A DNA stretch of 64,000 nt from Myxosarcina sp. GI1 (GTDB lineage: Bacteria; Cyanobacteriota; Cyanobacteriia; Cyanobacteriales; Xenococcaceae). The stretch lies in NCBI RefSeq assembly GCF_000756305.1, contig NZ_JRFE01000016.1, forward strand, positions 108,874 to 172,873. The letters run 5' to 3'. Numbering within the stretch: position 1 is the first letter of the stretch; each line of letters opens with the position of its first letter. Shown here piece by piece: positions 20,203 through 27,551 of this stretch. The notes beneath the pieces were generated by a model. The model saw nothing but the letters and a program-made list of their open reading frames with translations. It did no database searches and was not told where the DNA came from. The translations under genes and the position numbers were made by a program.

Positions 20203-22662
20203 ATGCCAGACTCAGGTAAAAGTAACTTGGTCTGCCCAATGGTTGATACACGAGCGGATTGCCAAAACTCAAACGAATTAGTTGAGTTAGATAACTTACA
20301 ACGAGAAGTAATTAAAGTATTAACTGGCGTTAATACTTTAATTAAAGATACTCAAGCTAATTTAATTAATGATGCTGCCGAAGAAAAATACGAACTGTTC
20401 GAGCAGCAAATAAGTGATGCCAGCCAAAATGTAGCAGAACTACAGTTGAGAATGGCAATTGTAGCTCCGATGAAGGCAGGAAAATCAACCATTATTAATG
20501 CGATCGTCGGACAAGAATTATTGCCTAATTGCGCGGCGGCAATGACCACAATTCCTACAGAAATTTCCTTTAATTCGCAATTAACGCAACCTATCTTAAA
20601 CCTCAGTGACAATACCCTTGAGGTTTTTAACGCTCTTTTTCTAGCAATTAAGCAACAAATTGCCCAATTCGGAATTGAGACGCTTCAGCAAAAATTAGCT
20701 CGTTATCCCCATTTAATCGAACTGCTGACCAAAATTGAAGCTATAGAACAGTTATCTTTTGCCGAGCAAATTGTCGGGCGAGATGCAATCTCTAATACTC
20801 TGAACTATCTCAATCACGTTATTCGTTTGTATAGCGTCATCGATCCTTTAAGCGAACCACTCGCCAAACTTAAAGACGTTCCTCAAATTCAAACTCCTTT
20901 TCTAAGTTTGGAGAATAGCGAAACTAACAAAAACCTGGGTAATCTGACTATTATCGATACTCCAGGTCCTAATGAAGCGGGAGAAAATCTTAAGTTAACC
21001 GCAGTGGTGGAAGAACAACTGCACCGCAGTTCGATTGTTTTAATCGTACTCGACTTTACCCAGCTCAATAATCAAGCTGCCGAAGCAATTAAAAGGCAGG
21101 TAAAGCCAATAATAGAAACAATTGGCAAAAATAATCTTTATGTTTTGGTCAATAAAGTAGACTGCCGACGCAGGGGAGATATGACCACAGAACAAGTTAA
21201 AGATTTTGTTGTTGCCGATTTAGAATTAAGCTCAAATGACGATCGCGATCGCATTTTTGAAGTATCGGCACTTCGAGCCTTTGCCGCTACGGAGTTTTTA
21301 CAGGAACTCAAGCATCGTCCCGAAGCCAAACTACAAGACCTCAAGTCTGTAGAAACCCTGGCGCAAGAAATTTTTGGCATCGACTGGGAAGAAGAGCTAG
21401 AAGATATAGACATCCAAACTCTTTTTAAAAAAGCCAAAAAGCTGTGGCAAAAGTCTGGCTTTGCTCCTTTTCTTAATGGTGCGATCGCTGCTTTGATGAC
21501 TAATGCCGCGCCTAAATGTTTAATATCAGCTTTGAGTTTGAGTCGCTATCGTTTACTAGAAATCAGAGACGATCTCAAACTTCGTAGCAATGCTATTTCT
21601 CAGGATACAGAAAAGCTACAGACAGAAGTAAAGGCTTTAGAAAACGATCTTGCTTGTTTGGAGTCATGTCGCCAGCGTCTCGGAGAGATCGAACAGATAA
21701 AAAGCAAGCTACAGCAAAATTTAGCCGTAATGTTAGAGGAACTCAAAAAAGAAGCTGTGGTTAGTGTAGAAGACTATTTTACTCGCGAAGAATACGAACG
21801 TGCCGATTCTTTAGGTAAAGCCGACATTAAAGCCAGAGAATTGTTACTCAGTAACATTGGCAATTTTGAATTGTTTCCTAAATGGATATCCAGCAATTTA
21901 AAATCTAGTTTTGAATATAAAATTGCTGAGGTAATATCGTTTAAAACCGAAGCCGAAGCAGCAGAATTTGCTGAAAAAGCAGTTCTTTGGGCAAAACAAA
22001 GATTAGACATTTTGCTGTCTAAAGTTCGTCATAATACCGAACTGGAAATTGAAGCAGCGAGTTTGAGTTTGGCAGAATTTTTGACCGAAGAAACTCTACC
22101 AATTATCAATCGTGCTAAAAGCAGACTACAAACAAACTTTAATATCGATTTAGATTTACCTCCTCCAGTTCTGCAATCTGAAGAAGAAATCGCTATAGGA
22201 CAACAGTTGGTTAAAACCAAAACTCGTTTGGTCGATCGCGGTTATGAAGAAAAGCTAGTGCGAAAAAGAGCTTGGTACTATTGGTTGGGTATCGTTCCTT
22301 TTTATAGCCAAGAGCAAATTAGAAAACCTTATAAAAAAGAAAATTACTATACTGTTTCAATTCATGAGTTAGTATCGGAAATAAATAGCTCTAGCGAAAA
22401 GTTTATCGAGGCAATTAGTAACAAAATTGACGCTTATTTAGAACTAGACCTACAGCAGCAGGTAAATAACTTTTTTGCCAACCTGGATAATTATTTAGGT
22501 AGCTATCTCCAAAATCTACAGCAGGCACAGGTAGATCGTCAGCTATCTCTCGAACAAAGAGAACGTTTGGCCGATCTTTTAAATAATTTGGTTCCTCAAA
22601 CCGACAAATACCTCTCAATGACCGATGATTGTCTCCGAGCGGTAAAGTTACCGTTCGATTGA
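20203..22662 (+). CDS. Large bacterial dynamin-like GTPase (819 aa)
   Basis: G1 is APMKAGKS at 88-95, the switch I threonines are in MTTIPTE at 114-120, G3 is DTPG at 252-255 followed by PNEAGENL, and G4 is NKVD at 317-320, so the GTPase centre is complete. A long insertion between switch I and G3 (about 125-245) is helical. The C-terminal 400 residues are alpha-helical with coiled-coil character (SNAISQDTEKLQTEVKALEN). A tryptophan/tyrosine-rich basic loop, KRAWYYWLGIVPFYSQEQIR, at about 688-707 could serve as the membrane-binding paddle. No strong transmembrane segment is present, unlike the 569-aa paralogue at 6492. Expected role: membrane remodelling or fusion. It is probably expressed with the antiporter. 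Confidence 0.87.
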   Translation: MPDSGKSNLVCPMVDTRADCQNSNELVELDNLQREVIKVLTGVNTLIKDTQANLINDAAEEKYELFEQQISDASQNVAELQLRMAIVAPMKAGKSTIINAIVGQELLPNCAAAMTTIPTEISFNSQLTQPILNLSDNTLEVFNALFLAIKQQIAQFGIETLQQKLARYPHLIELLTKIEAIEQLSFAEQIVGRDAISNTLNYLNHVIRLYSVIDPLSEPLAKLKDVPQIQTPFLSLENSETNKNLGNLTIIDTPGPNEAGENLKLTAVVEEQLHRSSIVLIVLDFTQLNNQAAEAIKRQVKPIIETIGKNNLYVLVNKVDCRRRGDMTTEQVKDFVVADLELSSNDDRDRIFEVSALRAFAATEFLQELKHRPEAKLQDLKSVETLAQEIFGIDWEEELEDIDIQTLFKKAKKLWQKSGFAPFLNGAIAALMTNAAPKCLISALSLSRYRLLEIRDDLKLRSNAISQDTEKLQTEVKALENDLACLESCRQRLGEIEQIKSKLQQNLAVMLEELKKEAVVSVEDYFTREEYERADSLGKADIKARELLLSNIGNFELFPKWISSNLKSSFEYKIAEVISFKTEAEAAEFAEKAVLWAKQRLDILLSKVRHNTELEIEAASLSLAEFLTEETLPIINRAKSRLQTNFNIDLDLPPPVLQSEEEIAIGQQLVKTKTRLVDRGYEEKLVRKRAWYYWLGIVPFYSQEQIRKPYKKENYYTVSIHELVSEINSSSEKFIEAISNKIDAYLELDLQQQVNNFFANLDNYLGSYLQNLQQAQVDRQLSLEQRERLADLLNNLVPQTDKYLSMTDDCLRAVKLPFD

Positions 22663-22810
22663 CAAAGAGAGCAATTGCTTTGCTTGGGAGCAGGGACTAA
22701 GGAAGAGAGTTAAAATTAGACTACGATCTCTCCTGCACTGTTACATCTTGCTTCCCCTGCCTGAAAAAAAGCTCGACAATTAAATATCGACAGACCACCA
22801 AAGCCTAGAA

Positions 22811-23437
22811 CTAGACAATTTTATCAGTCCAAATACTTTTACCTTCATCTTCATAAAAACGATAGTATAATTCCTTATCTTCAAATTTTTCTTCATCTGT
22901 TATGTGATGAGCAATTTTTTTGTCGATTAGTTTTTGTCCTAACGAGACAGCATCAGCACGAGAAACATCGTACTTTTTAACGATCCAGTCTACTGCTTCA
23001 CTACCAACAAAACAACGCTGATATAGTTTTAATTTTTGTCGGCGAGTTTTAATCTCGACACCTTTTTCGGCTCGCATTTCGAGAGCTAACTGTCTGACGC
23101 TAATTTTGTCTAGTTTGGCAGCATTTTGAGGAGTCTCTTGAGCGGTAGCTACGTCTCCATTAGCTTCCTGACTGATGCGATAACGGTCATCTCGCATCCA
23201 AATACCGACACTATTTGTATCTTTAACTAATAAAGTAGGAATTAGCGTCCGCTCTTCGTGATCTAAGTATTCTTCTCGACATTCTTTAATTGCCTGCTGC
23301 AATTCGCTGCGATCGAAAGATTTTGCCAAAGTAAAAATATTCCCTTGATAAATCAATCCCGATGTAGTTTTTTCCCGATCATCTACATAACCCGTAACTT
23401 TACGATATTCAACTTGTTCGGAATCTAACATCAACAT
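22811..23437 (-). CDS. DEP-domain protein
   Basis: 208 residues. The C-terminal half (about 112-195) is a DEP domain: LALEMRAEKGVEIKTRRQKL, FVGSEAVDWIVKKYDVSRAD, AVSLGQKLIDKKIAHHITDE and LYYRFYEDE. DEP domains bind membranes or partner proteins in signalling. The N-terminal half is not recognised; it contains an EYRKVTGYV segment and a predicted helix SELQQAIKECREEYLD. It lies 82 bp downstream of the DndD-like ATPase on the same strand, so it may be the last gene of that cluster, though it could have its own promoter in the AT-rich gap. Confidence 0.8.
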   Translation of the reverse strand: MLMLDSEQVEYRKVTGYVDDREKTTSGLIYQGNIFTLAKSFDRSELQQAIKECREEYLDHEERTLIPTLLVKDTNSVGIWMRDDRYRISQEANGDVATAQETPQNAAKLDKISVRQLALEMRAEKGVEIKTRRQKLKLYQRCFVGSEAVDWIVKKYDVSRADAVSLGQKLIDKKIAHHITDEEKFEDKELYYRFYEDEGKSIWTDKIV

Positions 23438-23519
23438 CAGTATTTTCTCCTATTGTCGAGCAATGATTTTAATTAAAGTTTTTGGCTTGAAATTTTAAAT
23501 ACTACGCTGTTTTTAAACA

Positions 23520-25586
23520 CTATTTATATCGTTTTATCATAACAATTTCAGTATATTCAAAATTATTTTCACTGTGTTTTACTAAAGGATAGTTTGTATC
23601 TCCTAGCTGTAGATAATCTAATTCGCAGTCTGGTTTGGGAGAGTTATAAACTAAAACATATTCTCGTCCAACTCGTTGTTCGATCTCGGTTTCTACTTCT
23701 CCCTGCCATTGTGTTTTAGTTGCTAACACCACTAACTGGTTTGCTAATTGAGGAATAGCTCTAGCTACCTGTCGGCGATATATGCGATCTAGGCTGCCAA
23801 AGGGAGAATCCATAACTACAGGAAAAGTGCTACTATCAGGTCCCATTAGGGTATTGCGTTGGCTCCATTCTCTAACACGGTCGATAATCGCGCCAATAAA
23901 ACTAAGGCTCAGAATTTGATTTTCTCCTGTAGATGCGGCAACCGTAACCTCTACTCCAGAAGTATTTTCAATTAAAGTCAGCTGATAGTTATGGTCGAGG
24001 CGAGGAAGATAGGGGGTAAAAGAAATAAAGCTAAATATTTCTCTTAATTTTTGTTCTAAGGAAAACCGAAATTGAGTTTCCAAACGGTTTCTTATTTCAT
24101 TCAGTTTGACAATAGATTCAACTGTGACATCAACGCGCTTTTTGGCTACAGCTTGCTTATGTTCGGTAAGTTTTTGTCGCTCTATTTCGGTAACATTTTT
24201 GGCGATGCTGTAGCGAATATCCGCTAACTGCTGCCTTTGTTCTCCTTGCTCTAAAACCAAACTTTTGATTTTTTCTTCAATTCGTTCTAAGTCGGAATGT
24301 AAATTTTGAATATCTCGGTCGGGGAAATTTTTGAGTTTTTTGGTAGTTTTTTCCAGTTCGGTTTCTAATTCGTTGAGCTGCCGATATAAATCGTTTGTTT
24401 TTGCTTGATGCAAATCTACTTGTTGCCAAAACTCGACAGAGTTTGCTAGAGAACGTTCGACCTGCATTTCCAAACGCATCGCTGCTGCTTCTATTTCTTG
24501 AAGATCGACTTTATCGAGCCAAGAACTAACTTGCTGATAGGAAGTAGTCTGGGGTTCTAGTTTCTCACCGCAGATACAGCGTCCTTCGGTAAGTAAGCGA
24601 GCGACAAATTCTCGTTTGATGCCTGTAGATAGTAGTCTGCGATCGCGCAAATTGCCAACTAACTGCAAGAAATTAGCGTTGATAGTTTCTAGATAAACTG
24701 TATAGCCAGCTTGAGAGATAGTCTTTTTTAAATCTGATTTAGTTTTAACTAGACTATTTTTAACCGTTTGTTCTTGTTCGATTAACTTAGCTCTTAACTG
24801 CTGTAGTTTATCGGCACCACTCGACTCTAATAAACTGGCTGAAATTTGCTTTTTGCGCGATTCTAAACTGGTAATTTCTCTACTAATTTCTGCCTGTCGC
24901 TGCGTTAGACGATCGCTTTGAGTTTCTGCTTCCATTTGTGCCTGTAATAGCTGTTTGATAGCTGGATCGCCGAGAAGTTGCAGTTCTTCTTGTAAAGTTC
25001 GTTTGGCAGTTTTTAAATGCTCTATGGCTCGATCTAAAACTTTAACCCCTAGCAACTCTTTGGTATCATCGGCGATATTATTGTCTCTCTCGCCACGAAA
25101 AAAGCGGTCGATGCGCTCGCCATCAAAAAAGAAGTACTGATGCAAACTAGCAGGTAAAATACTTTCAATAATTTCTTCTGGTGCTTCTAATGGTGGATAC
25201 CAGCGTCCATCATCAGCTGCCACCAACATAAATAATTTTGTGGAACTATAGCGAACGCTATCTAATTCTTTAGTTGCGTAACACTTACGTTTGACTTGAT
25301 ACAGCTTGCGATCGCGCTCGAACTGAAGCTCTACCCAGCATTCAACTGCCGTACCGACTTTAGCTTCATTAATCGCACGCTGATTGATTAGTAGCTCAGG
25401 AGAAGCAAAAGCTGCCGTAAATCTTTCATATAGTATCCAGGTAAAAGCATTTAAAATACTAGTTTTTCCCGCACCGTTATTGCCATAGATTGCGGTAGTG
25501 TTCTGTTCTCCACTAGCAAATTTGATTACTGGTGTTCTACCATAAAATTGCCTGAAATTACATAGCTGTAAAGATTTTAGCTTCAT
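23520..25586 (-). CDS. DndD/SMC-like AAA ATPase with long coiled coil
   Basis: 688 residues. An RecF/SMC-type N-terminus starts MKLKSLQLCNFRQFYGRTP, with Walker A GNNGAGKT at 35-42 and the DndD-type motif QYFFFDGERIDRFFRGE at about 150-166. A coiled coil follows, interrupted by a zinc-hook-like turn GRCICGEKLEP near 335. The C-terminal ATPase half holds the signature region GENQILSLSFIGAI and Walker B VVMDSPFGSLD. The family includes DndD of phosphorothioate DNA modification and several phage-defence ATPases, but no dndB, dndC, dndE or sulfur-transfer gene is nearby. Its ATG overlaps the stop of the upstream 58-aa gene by 4 bp (ATGA), which indicates translational coupling. Function: DNA-linked ATPase, inferred. 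Confidence 0.85.
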   Translation of the reverse strand: MKLKSLQLCNFRQFYGRTPVIKFASGEQNTTAIYGNNGAGKTSILNAFTWILYERFTAAFASPELLINQRAINEAKVGTAVECWVELQFERDRKLYQVKRKCYATKELDSVRYSSTKLFMLVAADDGRWYPPLEAPEEIIESILPASLHQYFFFDGERIDRFFRGERDNNIADDTKELLGVKVLDRAIEHLKTAKRTLQEELQLLGDPAIKQLLQAQMEAETQSDRLTQRQAEISREITSLESRKKQISASLLESSGADKLQQLRAKLIEQEQTVKNSLVKTKSDLKKTISQAGYTVYLETINANFLQLVGNLRDRRLLSTGIKREFVARLLTEGRCICGEKLEPQTTSYQQVSSWLDKVDLQEIEAAAMRLEMQVERSLANSVEFWQQVDLHQAKTNDLYRQLNELETELEKTTKKLKNFPDRDIQNLHSDLERIEEKIKSLVLEQGEQRQQLADIRYSIAKNVTEIERQKLTEHKQAVAKKRVDVTVESIVKLNEIRNRLETQFRFSLEQKLREIFSFISFTPYLPRLDHNYQLTLIENTSGVEVTVAASTGENQILSLSFIGAIIDRVREWSQRNTLMGPDSSTFPVVMDSPFGSLDRIYRRQVARAIPQLANQLVVLATKTQWQGEVETEIEQRVGREYVLVYNSPKPDCELDYLQLGDTNYPLVKHSENNFEYTEIVMIKRYK

Positions 25587-25759
25587 CGAACTACTTGTTT
25601 GATAATTTTTAAAATATCTTCGTTTATATTTCTTGGTGTTTTTAAATATAGTTTATCTTTTTCTAGTTTTAGCACTCGCTCTATTATGGCTTTTGCTTCT
25701 GGAGATGCAGAATTTATCGGTTCTTGAATATTATTTAAATTAGCTTTAGGGTCAACCAT
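25583..25759 (-). CDS. 58-residue protein coupled to the DndD-like ATPase
   Basis: Starting at the ATG at 25759, 5 bp after the upstream stop, the product is 58 residues: MVDPKANLNNIQEPINSA then a basic helix-forming part (AKAIIERVLKLEKDKLYLK) ending IIKQVVR. A TTG at 25774 would lengthen it by five residues and overlap the previous gene, so the ATG is preferred. No known domain is recognised. The 4-bp overlap with the ATPase start and the tight spacing on both sides argue that it is a real gene and a likely small partner of the ATPase, in the way DndE partners DndD. No sequence similarity to DndE is claimed. Confidence 0.65.
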   Translation of the reverse strand: MVDPKANLNNIQEPINSASPEAKAIIERVLKLEKDKLYLKTPRNINEDILKIIKQVVR

Positions 25760-25763
25760 ACTG

Positions 25764-26567
25764 TTAGGTTTCAAACATCAATTTGTAAGTTAATAAATTG
25801 GATATATCTATCTCTGCTAAATCTGGAATTTCTTTAAATTTTAAGTAACCTTTAAAAAAGTATGGTATTAGTCCGCACGCTACATCTAGTAAACTTTTAT
25901 TCATTTTAAGTTCTAGATCGCGTATGGTATGTTTTCCGTTAAGCAGACGAGACATATTTTTAAAAATCATGTCTGGTAGTTTTTCCTCCAATTCTCTAGC
26001 ATTTGTTAGTAAAGGAGCTAAATTGGGCGAACAAGAAGCTAAACCTTTATATTTCCACGCCAACCACTGTTGCTGCGATTCAAACATTACGCGCTCTATA
26101 TCGATTCGCGCTAAAGATAAGTTAAAACCACTTTTAAGTATTTGATGCGCCGAGTAATTTTGCTTTTGGTACTGTAATTCTTGTTTGTGTTCTTGCTGAA
26201 TAATATCGAAAAAGCTGTCTTGAGTTCTAGTTGTTATTAAAGCTATGGCTTTTTCTGGTTTGATATGATTTTTTTGAACCAAAGAAACTAAAAAATTATA
26301 CTTTAGTTGTTCTAAATTATTTTTACTTTTTGACAACAGATCTAGATCTAAAACCATCAGTTTTAGATCTAGATCTGAAAAATGTTGGCTCATGTATTTT
26401 TGCCAGAAGCGATTAGGATGATATCCACCTTCTATCCAGAGAAATTTCCCTAAGTAAAAATACATTTTCCATTGTTTATCTTTTTGAGTCTCTACAGTTA
26501 CAACACCTGTAAACTTTTGTCGTGGCAGAGGAATCAAAAAATTTTCTAAATTATTGTTTGCACTCAT
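25764..26567 (-). CDS. PatA/PixG N-terminal (DUF4388-like) protein lacking a receiver domain
   Basis: 267 residues. The sequence follows the cyanobacterial PatA/PixG pattern: FTGVVTVETQKDKQWKMYFY, LGKFLWIEGGYHPNRFWQKY, an FLVSLVQKNHIKPEKAIALI helix, FFDIIQQEH, and HTIRDLELKMNKSLLDVACG. In PatA and PixG this region is followed by a C-terminal CheY-type receiver of about 120 residues. Here the protein stops at LLTYKLMFET and the next gene starts 5 bp later, so the receiver is absent rather than frameshifted. PatA-type proteins act in phototaxis and cell-polarity signalling. It heads the four-gene minus-strand cluster, and its promoter should lie in 26568-26702, shared with divergent rsmI. Confidence 0.75.
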   Translation of the reverse strand: MSANNNLENFLIPLPRQKFTGVVTVETQKDKQWKMYFYLGKFLWIEGGYHPNRFWQKYMSQHFSDLDLKLMVLDLDLLSKSKNNLEQLKYNFLVSLVQKNHIKPEKAIALITTRTQDSFFDIIQQEHKQELQYQKQNYSAHQILKSGFNLSLARIDIERVMFESQQQWLAWKYKGLASCSPNLAPLLTNARELEEKLPDMIFKNMSRLLNGKHTIRDLELKMNKSLLDVACGLIPYFFKGYLKFKEIPDLAEIDISNLLTYKLMFET

Positions 26568-26702
26568 CTGTATTAAAATAGAGTTTATCTAGTTACAATA
26601 AAGTAGTCATAAAGTCGTAGTTTTTTTACGAAAATATTTATTATTTTGGAGCTTGGCTCGATAAAACAAATGTGATGTCTACTTTATTAACTAATTGACA
26701 TA

Positions 26703-27551
26703 ATGGAAGATTTATCTTCGGGAATACTTTACTTAGTAGGAACTCCTATTGGAAATTTAGAAGATATTACTTTAAGAGCAATACGCATCTTACAACAGGT
26801 AGATACCATTGCTGCTGAAGATACCCGTAGAACTGGCAAATTATTGCAACATTTACAAATCGATACTCCTCAAATTAGCTATTACGAACACAATCATAGC
26901 TCCCGAATTGAGAATCTACTAGCTCGTCTTCGACAAGGTGCAAAAATAGCTTTAGTTACCGATGCTGGAATGCCCAGTATTTCCGATCCGGGTTACGAAC
27001 TTGTTAGAGAAGCGATCGCCAATTCAGTTACAGTAGTTCCCATTCCTGGAGTAACAGCAGCAGTTTGTGCTTTAGCCGCATCGGGTTTGCCTACTTATAG
27101 GTTTGTGTTTGAAGGCTTTTTGCCGCAAAAAAATAAGTTCAAAAAAGAGCGGTTGGACGCACTACAATCTGAAACCAGAACGACAATTTTTTACGAAGCA
27201 CCCCATCGTCTCCAACAAACCTTAAAGGATCTAGGCGCTAGTTTGGGAATTGAACGACAAATCGTTATTGCCAGAGAACTAACCAAAATTCACGAAGAAT
27301 TTTGGCGGGGAAGCATTAATGAAGCGATCGCACTTTATGAAACTAGTCGTCAGCCAAAAGGAGAATACACACTAGTGGTTGCAGGAGCGATACCAGAAGT
27401 TGCGATCGCTACTGAGGCAGAATTAATTACCGAATTAGAGCAGCTATTAAAACAGGGCATGACGCGATCGCAAGCTAGCAGCTATTTGGCTAAAATATCA
27501 AATTTTTCGCGCCGAAAAATCTATAAGCTTGCGGTAGAAATAGTATCGTAG
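26703..27551 (+). CDS. rsmI: 16S rRNA (cytidine(1402)-2'-O)-methyltransferase RsmI
   Basis: 282 residues, SAM-dependent tetrapyrrole-methylase-like fold. Diagnostic segments: LYLVGTPIGNLEDITLRAIR at the N-terminus, AAEDTRRTGKLLQHL, ALVTDAGMPSISDPGYELVR, VPIPGVTAAVCALAASGLPT and IFYEAPHRLQQTL. It 2'-O-methylates C1402 of 16S rRNA in the decoding centre. The length is typical. A palindromic repeat (27553-27573) follows directly after the stop. The downstream AGE-family gene starts 54 bp later. It is divergent from the PatA-like cluster. Confidence 0.95.
   Translation: MEDLSSGILYLVGTPIGNLEDITLRAIRILQQVDTIAAEDTRRTGKLLQHLQIDTPQISYYEHNHSSRIENLLARLRQGAKIALVTDAGMPSISDPGYELVREAIANSVTVVPIPGVTAAVCALAASGLPTYRFVFEGFLPQKNKFKKERLDALQSETRTTIFYEAPHRLQQTLKDLGASLGIERQIVIARELTKIHEEFWRGSINEAIALYETSRQPKGEYTLVVAGAIPEVAIATEAELITELEQLLKQGMTRSQASSYLAKISNFSRRKIYKLAVEIVS

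Follow-up and report, generated by a model that had tools for sequence, protein, structure and literature searches.

Assignment of the central gene pair

The stretch of Myxosarcina sp. GI1 DNA analysed here (the window: 64,000 nucleotides of contig NZ_JRFE01000016.1, positions 108,874 to 172,873; contig C16 of a 7.07-Mb, 76-contig genome) carries four minus-strand open reading frames (ORFs), which encode a PatA-like protein, a 58-aa protein, an ABC ATPase and a DEP-domain protein. An earlier note on this DNA, made from the sequence alone, placed these ORFs correctly and considered them as one unit. Which of the four genes belong together, and what could they do? We conclude from profile matches and gene order that the two central genes are almost certainly pbeB and pbeC of a PbeABCD (CxC ABC-ATPase/DndE) system.

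Locus counts below refer to the best 80 of 308 confirmed related loci; the closest relatives of the pbeC locus are found in Pleurocapsa-like cyanobacteria. Both the small gene and the ATPase gene are present in 79 of the 80 loci, the last one ending 13 bases before the ATPase gene, and they abut or overlap in 70 (in the window by 4 bp, ATGA). Their pairing thus goes beyond chance, and the idea that the 58-aa protein is a partner of the ATPase is borne out. For a wider view, 292 genomes of the phylum were searched for PbeC, PbeD, PbeA and DndC; 83 of them belong to the order of the window's genome, which we take to be the Cyanobacteriales of GTDB. A PbeB profile search, which covered 79 of these 83 genomes plus G193 from outside the order, gave one match in each of 67 genomes with PbeC and none in 12 without it. 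The two genes lie at most 200 bp apart in 56 of the 67, 200-1000 bp apart in 5, and farther apart or on different contigs in 6; in G002, G066 and G207, where scores are weaker, pbeB adjoins pbeA instead. At locus L081 (Crocosphaera watsonii WH 8501) an early stop interrupts the pbeB frame upstream of pbeC.

Aligned with hhalign, the 58-aa family matches the small protein encoded upstream of PbeC on a haloarchaeal Natrinema plasmid (probability 97%, E 8e-11, 50% identity over 36 columns) and a five-protein set of such small PbeC-upstream neighbours (probability 95.7%). The structure model places the helices of PbeB at residues 20-37 and 46-57, with a mean pLDDT (predicted local distance difference test) of 80. 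Among 26 plasmid records with matches, nine PbeC-type loci were viewed, plus two labelled dndD. The small gene lies directly upstream of the ATPase in all nine, and six show the unbroken series helicase, small gene, ATPase and ~150-aa gene. A dndD-labelled ATPase on a Nonomuraea plasmid likewise has a small gene in front of it, so that a small upstream gene is not by itself diagnostic of Pbe. It is the homology of the small gene, the PbeC match of the ATPase and the order PbeA-B-C-D given in passages of the archaeal work (PMC6459918) that together identify the pair.

The ATPase contains the QYFFFDGERI motif and the CxCG hook that had been pointed out, the hook reading CICG (Cys337 and Cys339). 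The PADLOC PbeC model PDLC02753 matches it over nearly its full length (E 2.4e-273), and the 25 matches listed, of 73, are all PbeC or DndD, with no Lamassu or Wadjet among those. Its description as DndD-like was apt, this being a Rad50-like ABC ATPase matched as PbeC, a relative of DndD that, as DndD does, has a DndE-type partner in phosphorothioate (PT) systems; the DndD and SbcC/Rad50 models themselves stayed below cut-off. Identity with DndD was rejected: model TIGR03185 gave 130 bits against a cut-off of 245.85, the protein is placed outside the DndD group (group support 100/100, in a tree with long branches), it has the CxC hook, and a true DndD is encoded elsewhere in the genome. The hook is missing from five of five DndD proteins and also from two of seven non-cyanobacterial PbeC rows; the two Lactiplantibacillus PbeC proteins without it are, like the long branches, a caveat.

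As a hook-bearing coiled-coil ATPase PbeC also resembles Rad50 and SbcC, and Rad50 is the best fold match of its model in the PDB. In contrast to these proteins, it scores far below the SbcC cut-off (42.8 bits against 478.5), no SbcC or Rad50 model exceeds its threshold, and the genome has a separate SbcC; this identity was rejected, as was Septu (PtuA model 25.7 bits, cut-off 500). Further fold matches, the Wadjet JetABC and Lamassu LmuACB complexes, are defence systems with Rad50/SMC-type ATPases, the likeness to Lamassu being one of fold only; overall template-modelling (TM) scores were low, and with a predicted TM score of 0.55 the overall shape of the model is unreliable.

Partner genes, distribution and descent

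In the window's own genome pbeA, pbeD, dndC and dndD all lie on contig C7 (Table 1), so that the window locus is a detached B-C part of the Pbe system; a contiguous four-gene Pbe operon is not found in this genome, where the genes are split over C16 and C7. The earlier remark that no dnd genes flank the cluster is accurate for the locus and misleading as a guide, since the Dnd and Pbe partners are carried by other contigs. Directly upstream of dndC we observed a separate cassette, made of a second, HKD-bearing PbeA-like gene, a diverged CxC-motif ATPase gene and a 159-aa gene (L193:3176-7821, equal to C7:89175-93820). The pbeD gene is close to sbcC, on the opposite strand (L194:1942-6267).

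Across the order, pbeA, pbeC and pbeD occur together in 70 of 83 genomes, with DndC in 68 and without it in 2. Ten genomes, from four genera in two families, lack all three genes; DndC occurs alone in 3 of the 83 and none of the four is found in 7. Three genomes hold other partial sets: G051 has pbeA only, the draft G097 has pbeA, pbeD and DndC, and G268 retains a PbeD remnant with stops. Co-occurrence of pbeC and pbeD gives a Fisher p of 5e-12 among these related genomes. Outside the order the three genes were found together in two genomes (G170 and G193), clustered in both.

Within the order the genes are often scattered. Taking 15 kb as the limit, A-C linkage is seen in 31 of the 70 genomes, C-D in 36 and A-D in 23, and no pair is linked in 24. 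In 11 of these 24 all three genes are on a single contig, so that their joint loss need not be one deletion; the multi-contig draft assemblies of the other 13 may conceal linkage. Protein distances correlate with those of RpoB (PbeC r 0.87, PbeA 0.82, PbeD 0.68; Mantel p 0.0005 each), and partial correlations given RpoB are 0.67 for PbeC-PbeA, 0.46 for PbeA-PbeD and 0.31 for PbeC-PbeD (27 of 30 genomes, with the four proteins at usable length; G070, G116 and G131 were dropped). Such divergence fits vertical co-inheritance, unlinked genes included. Judged from these comparisons, PbeB and PbeC occur as single copies, and the members of the set are passed on jointly throughout the order.

The nuclease domain of PbeA

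Passages of the archaeal study describe PbeA as a PLD domain joined to a helicase (PMC6459918). In all 72 order genomes with a PbeA frame, the best stop-to-stop frame measures 383-550 aa, which leaves no space for the PLD/HKD nuclease that relatives carry at the N-terminus. The two shortest frames are interrupted, by a group II intron in G054 and by a frameshift in G159. An HKD domain search gave no match in any of 29 order PbeA loci with their flanks, and each of 41 PbeA rows contains the helicase motifs Walker A, DEAH and QxxGRxxR as loose patterns. The intron in pbeA of G054 (L247:1889-4491) matches Rfam RF00029 and holds a 609-aa ORF that looks to us like a reverse transcriptase; its exons join to an open frame.

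Longer frames were also observed. Three order genomes (G070, G116 and G253) have a second, weaker PbeA frame of 688-698 aa, and in four genomes outside the order the best frame reaches 714-745 aa. Among the long cases outside the order the HKD region was verified in two only, G193 and a Pseudanabaena plasmid. A nuclease-less PbeA in Pseudanabaena was considered and rejected, the annotated 476-aa start being misleading and the HKD region lying in frame upstream. When 80 genomes were searched for the HKD domain, 29 had matches; apart from those above 50% identity, these were weaker and mostly in long, other proteins.

In the PbeA tree the HKD label needs four changes, and the split between the order and the G193/Pseudanabaena pair is weakly supported (83/45); two rows of this tree carry wrong labels, the Pseudanabaena one and cy_L171, the latter and full_L210 (G193) being one gene. 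A single loss of HKD in the PbeA of the order is likely. Taken together, the scattered genes and short frames suggest that the order very probably carries a dispersed, nuclease-less Pbe system. An HNH nuclease beside pbeD was considered as a general substitute and rejected: 34 of 80 genomes matched at E 1e-15, several of them weakly, and the window's genome did not. HNH_2 endonuclease genes follow pbeD at L209:12596-13573 and L210:9121-10092; from its start, such a gene is perhaps, we presume, of the PT-binding kind.

A prophage inside pbeC

In genome G145 pbeC is split into residues 1-44, beside pbeB, and residues 45-684, which are parted by 45,102 bp (C1:2624636-2672098; L244-L246). The break falls between residues 44 and 45, just past the Walker A (P-loop) codons, and the joined flanks read through 687 codons with no stop. 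A large serine recombinase gene is located near the left end of the insert, followed by major head protein, head protease, tail sheath and tape-measure genes. The two junctions share no sequence longer than 8 bases, and as this one is not in register, an att core could not be assigned. A search of viral contigs gave one match, IMG/VR contig L238, with the same phage-pbeC junction. Passages of a survey on DNA elements that sit within genes of heterocyst-forming cyanobacteria contain no match for dnd (PMC4874684). It is conceivable that temperate phages turn Pbe off in a reversible manner by inserting themselves at the P-loop codons of pbeC; the single prophage case joins a phage to pbeC and proves no rule.

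Proposed function and alternatives

The Pbe components and their antiviral activity are known already. According to passages of the archaeal study, PbeABCD of Haloterrigena jeotgali, tested in Natrinema, stops virus replication while viral DNA remains intact and PT is required; pbeB, pbeC and pbeD are absolutely needed, pbeA mostly (PMC6459918). The defence role allowed for in the earlier note is plausible. The cyanobacterial genes share with it the PbeB-PbeC pair, the CxC hook of PbeC, a PbeD-type partner, the SF2 helicase PbeA and the company of dndC and dndD. They differ in being dispersed in many genomes, widespread and vertically inherited, and in a best PbeA frame that leaves no room for the PLD/HKD nuclease in any of the 72 order genomes. 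PbeB too is well conserved in the order, with the same mean pairwise identity as PbeC (58%, 23 genomes), whereas a review, in the part concerned, describes it as rapidly evolving and mostly disordered.

The explanation that we favour, with some reserve, is that PbeB and PbeC are parts of a dispersed Pbe system that would impose a non-cutting, PT-gated block, the other genes acting in trans. Pbe genes on other contigs would work together with PbeB and PbeC. A PbeC dimer, PbeB and the DNA reader PbeD would scan DNA for its PT state, which Dnd determines; where incoming DNA is unmodified, this complex would recruit the SF2 motor PbeA, and PbeA would keep that DNA from replicating or establishing itself, leaving it uncut. 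The block is read as non-cutting because the nuclease domain has been lost and the motor retained. For the exclusion function taken by itself, the scales would tip only slightly in favour. A bolder version seems doubtful to us: the Pbe system of the order would have lost its nuclease and become core chromosomal machinery, a scattered, non-cutting, PT-reading SMC-like/helicase complex that stalls unmodified DNA and that phages may switch off via pbeC.

Several observations weigh against the explanation we favour. Pbe activity is known from the archaeal system alone, the cyanobacterial sets being known from sequence, and a comparative study and review argues, in the passages concerned, that Pbe systems cut DNA and that the vast majority carry an HKD nuclease (PMC10853773). 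HKD matches above 50% identity occur in 5 of 79 order genomes, including the window's, all of them in separate PbeA-like second copies of 668-698 aa, and also in G193; a nuclease acting in trans is therefore possible in those five genomes. HNH genes adjoin pbeD in some genomes. PbeA without HKD is also seen outside cyanobacteria, at plasmid loci of Natrinema, Halorhabdus and two Lactiplantibacillus records (one such plasmid locus, L241, has less than 1 kb of sequence upstream of PbeA). The Fisher p values ignore shared ancestry, and 2 of the 70 genomes (G070 and G159) carry Pbe genes without a DndC match at E 1e-40. One in-frame stop was flagged in 4 of 70 PbeC matches, its position being unverified, while one further match is split by the prophage and another is truncated by the end of a contig (G151). 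Finally, a restriction system would not usually be so widespread, vertically inherited and dispersed; a housekeeping role would fit this picture equally well.

This last point leads to the main rival, PT-linked genome maintenance: the dispersed, nuclease-less Pbe system would serve the chromosome, for instance in PT-dependent repair or replication-fork handling in oxygen producers, and would have lost its defence role. The wide, single-copy presence of PbeB and PbeC, the dispersal and RpoB-like descent of the genes, the lost nuclease and the Rad50-like fold of PbeC would all suit such a role, as would a published proposal, made in passages of PMC8569181, according to which Dnd in cyanobacteria initially protected against oxidative stress. 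However, the set is dispensable, as the ten genomes without pbeA, pbeC and pbeD indicate, the only relative tested is antiviral, and the prophage inside pbeC in one genome is compatible with conflict, though no proof of it. We regard maintenance as rather unlikely. It is very improbable that the PbeB-PbeC pair is what is left of a decayed defence cassette: pbeA and pbeD are absent from the locus, the nuclease domain is lost and a few relatives have broken copies, but across 38 rows the hook cysteines and the motifs of the ATPase do not change, pbeB is as well conserved as pbeC, and the partner genes are retained.

The nuclease-less set of the order offers a natural test, in organisms with genetics, of the dispute between cutting (argued in passages of PMC10853773) and no cutting (reported in passages of PMC6459918). 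A further paper holds, in passages that concern dndFGH, that cyanobacteria have no PT restriction systems, and infers an antioxidant origin of Dnd; 'pbe' has no match in its main text (PMC8569181). With a Pbe-type set in 70 of 83 order genomes, the published absence looks incomplete, and so does the argument for cutting from the prevalence of HKD. Among the listings, abstracts and passages of open-access papers that were searched, we found no earlier report of Pbe in cyanobacteria, nor of an order-wide, vertically kept Pbe system that is dispersed and nuclease-less, nor of a prophage in pbeC.

Neighbouring genes and other features

The reading of all four genes as one signalling-plus-DNA module draws on their common strand and short spacing. 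The 4-bp overlap and the 82-bp gap from the ATPase gene to the DEP gene are as described, while the distance from the PatA-like stop to the ATG of the 58-aa gene is 4 bp and not 5. At 19 of the 80 loci, mostly Pleurocapsa-, Xenococcus- or Prochloron-like, pbeC is followed by the DEP gene, which may be co-transcribed with it in that lineage (77 loci have at least 700 bases available downstream). However, the PatA-like gene adjoins pbeB in none of the 80 loci, and among the 70 PbeC-bearing genomes sampled from the order only three (G000, G070 and G131) have DEP next to pbeC. In most relatives the small protein and the ATPase are unaccompanied by the PatA-like and DEP genes, an outcome of the kind that the earlier note had named as refuting its idea. 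A four-gene module is hardly credible, and the PatA-like and DEP genes look like neighbours by chance or lineage and not Pbe parts.

The PatA/PixG-type label of the 267-aa protein has two bases, a DUF4388 match below threshold (21.8 bits, cut-off 25) and matches of residues ~10-250 to frames of relatives. These frames are mostly ~390-460 aa and continue where the 267-aa protein ends. The term receiver-less would fit this early end. In the flanks of the 11 best PatA-like loci of the family no pbeB or pbeC was found, and 8 of these loci have a second PatA-like match.

Table 1. Positions of the genes and protein motifs discussed (window numbering, or contig of the same genome)
Feature	Position	Strand	Basis or remark
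PatA-N-like protein without receiver, 267 aa	25764..26567	-	neighbour at this locus only, not part of the system; 0 of 80 loci
pbeB, 58 aa, predicted two-helix hairpin, 4-bp overlap with pbeC	25583..25759	-	synteny, hhalign, structure model
pbeC, 688-aa CxC-type ABC ATPase with hook, Rad50/SMC-like fold	23520..25586	-	PADLOC PbeC match, phylogeny, PDB fold matches
PbeC Walker A, residues 35-43, GNNGAGKTS	25458..25484	-	7 of 9 positions invariant, 38 rows
PbeC CxC hook, Cys337-Ile-Cys339	24570..24578	-	both Cys invariant, 38 rows
PbeC residues 552-557, STGENQ	23916..23933	-	6 of 6 invariant, 38 rows; presumably the ABC-signature region
PbeC residues 590-600, VVMDSPFGSLD	23787..23819	-	M592 to D600 invariant, 38 rows; presumably Walker B and D-loop
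DEP-domain protein, 208 aa	22811..23437	-	lineage-specific neighbour, probably no member of the system; PF00610, E 2.5e-22
dndC	C7:93854-95524		own genome
dndD	C7:96582-98561		own genome; true DndD, 641 bits
pbeA	C7:101130-102650		own genome; TIGR04095, 637.5 bits, cut-off 600
pbeD (dnd_assoc_4, DndE-like, TIGR04062)	C7:107941-108408		own genome; E 3.0e-59, match span C7:107944-108396
sbcC, separate gene	C7:109243-112266		own genome
DndE-family matches, two	C14 and C58		own genome

A scan of positions 22400-27000 for promoters and terminators gave sites no more numerous than in shuffled sequence. The cluster is adjoined by a gene for an 819-aa dynamin-family GTPase (window 20203-22662, plus strand; Dynamin_N, E 3e-15).

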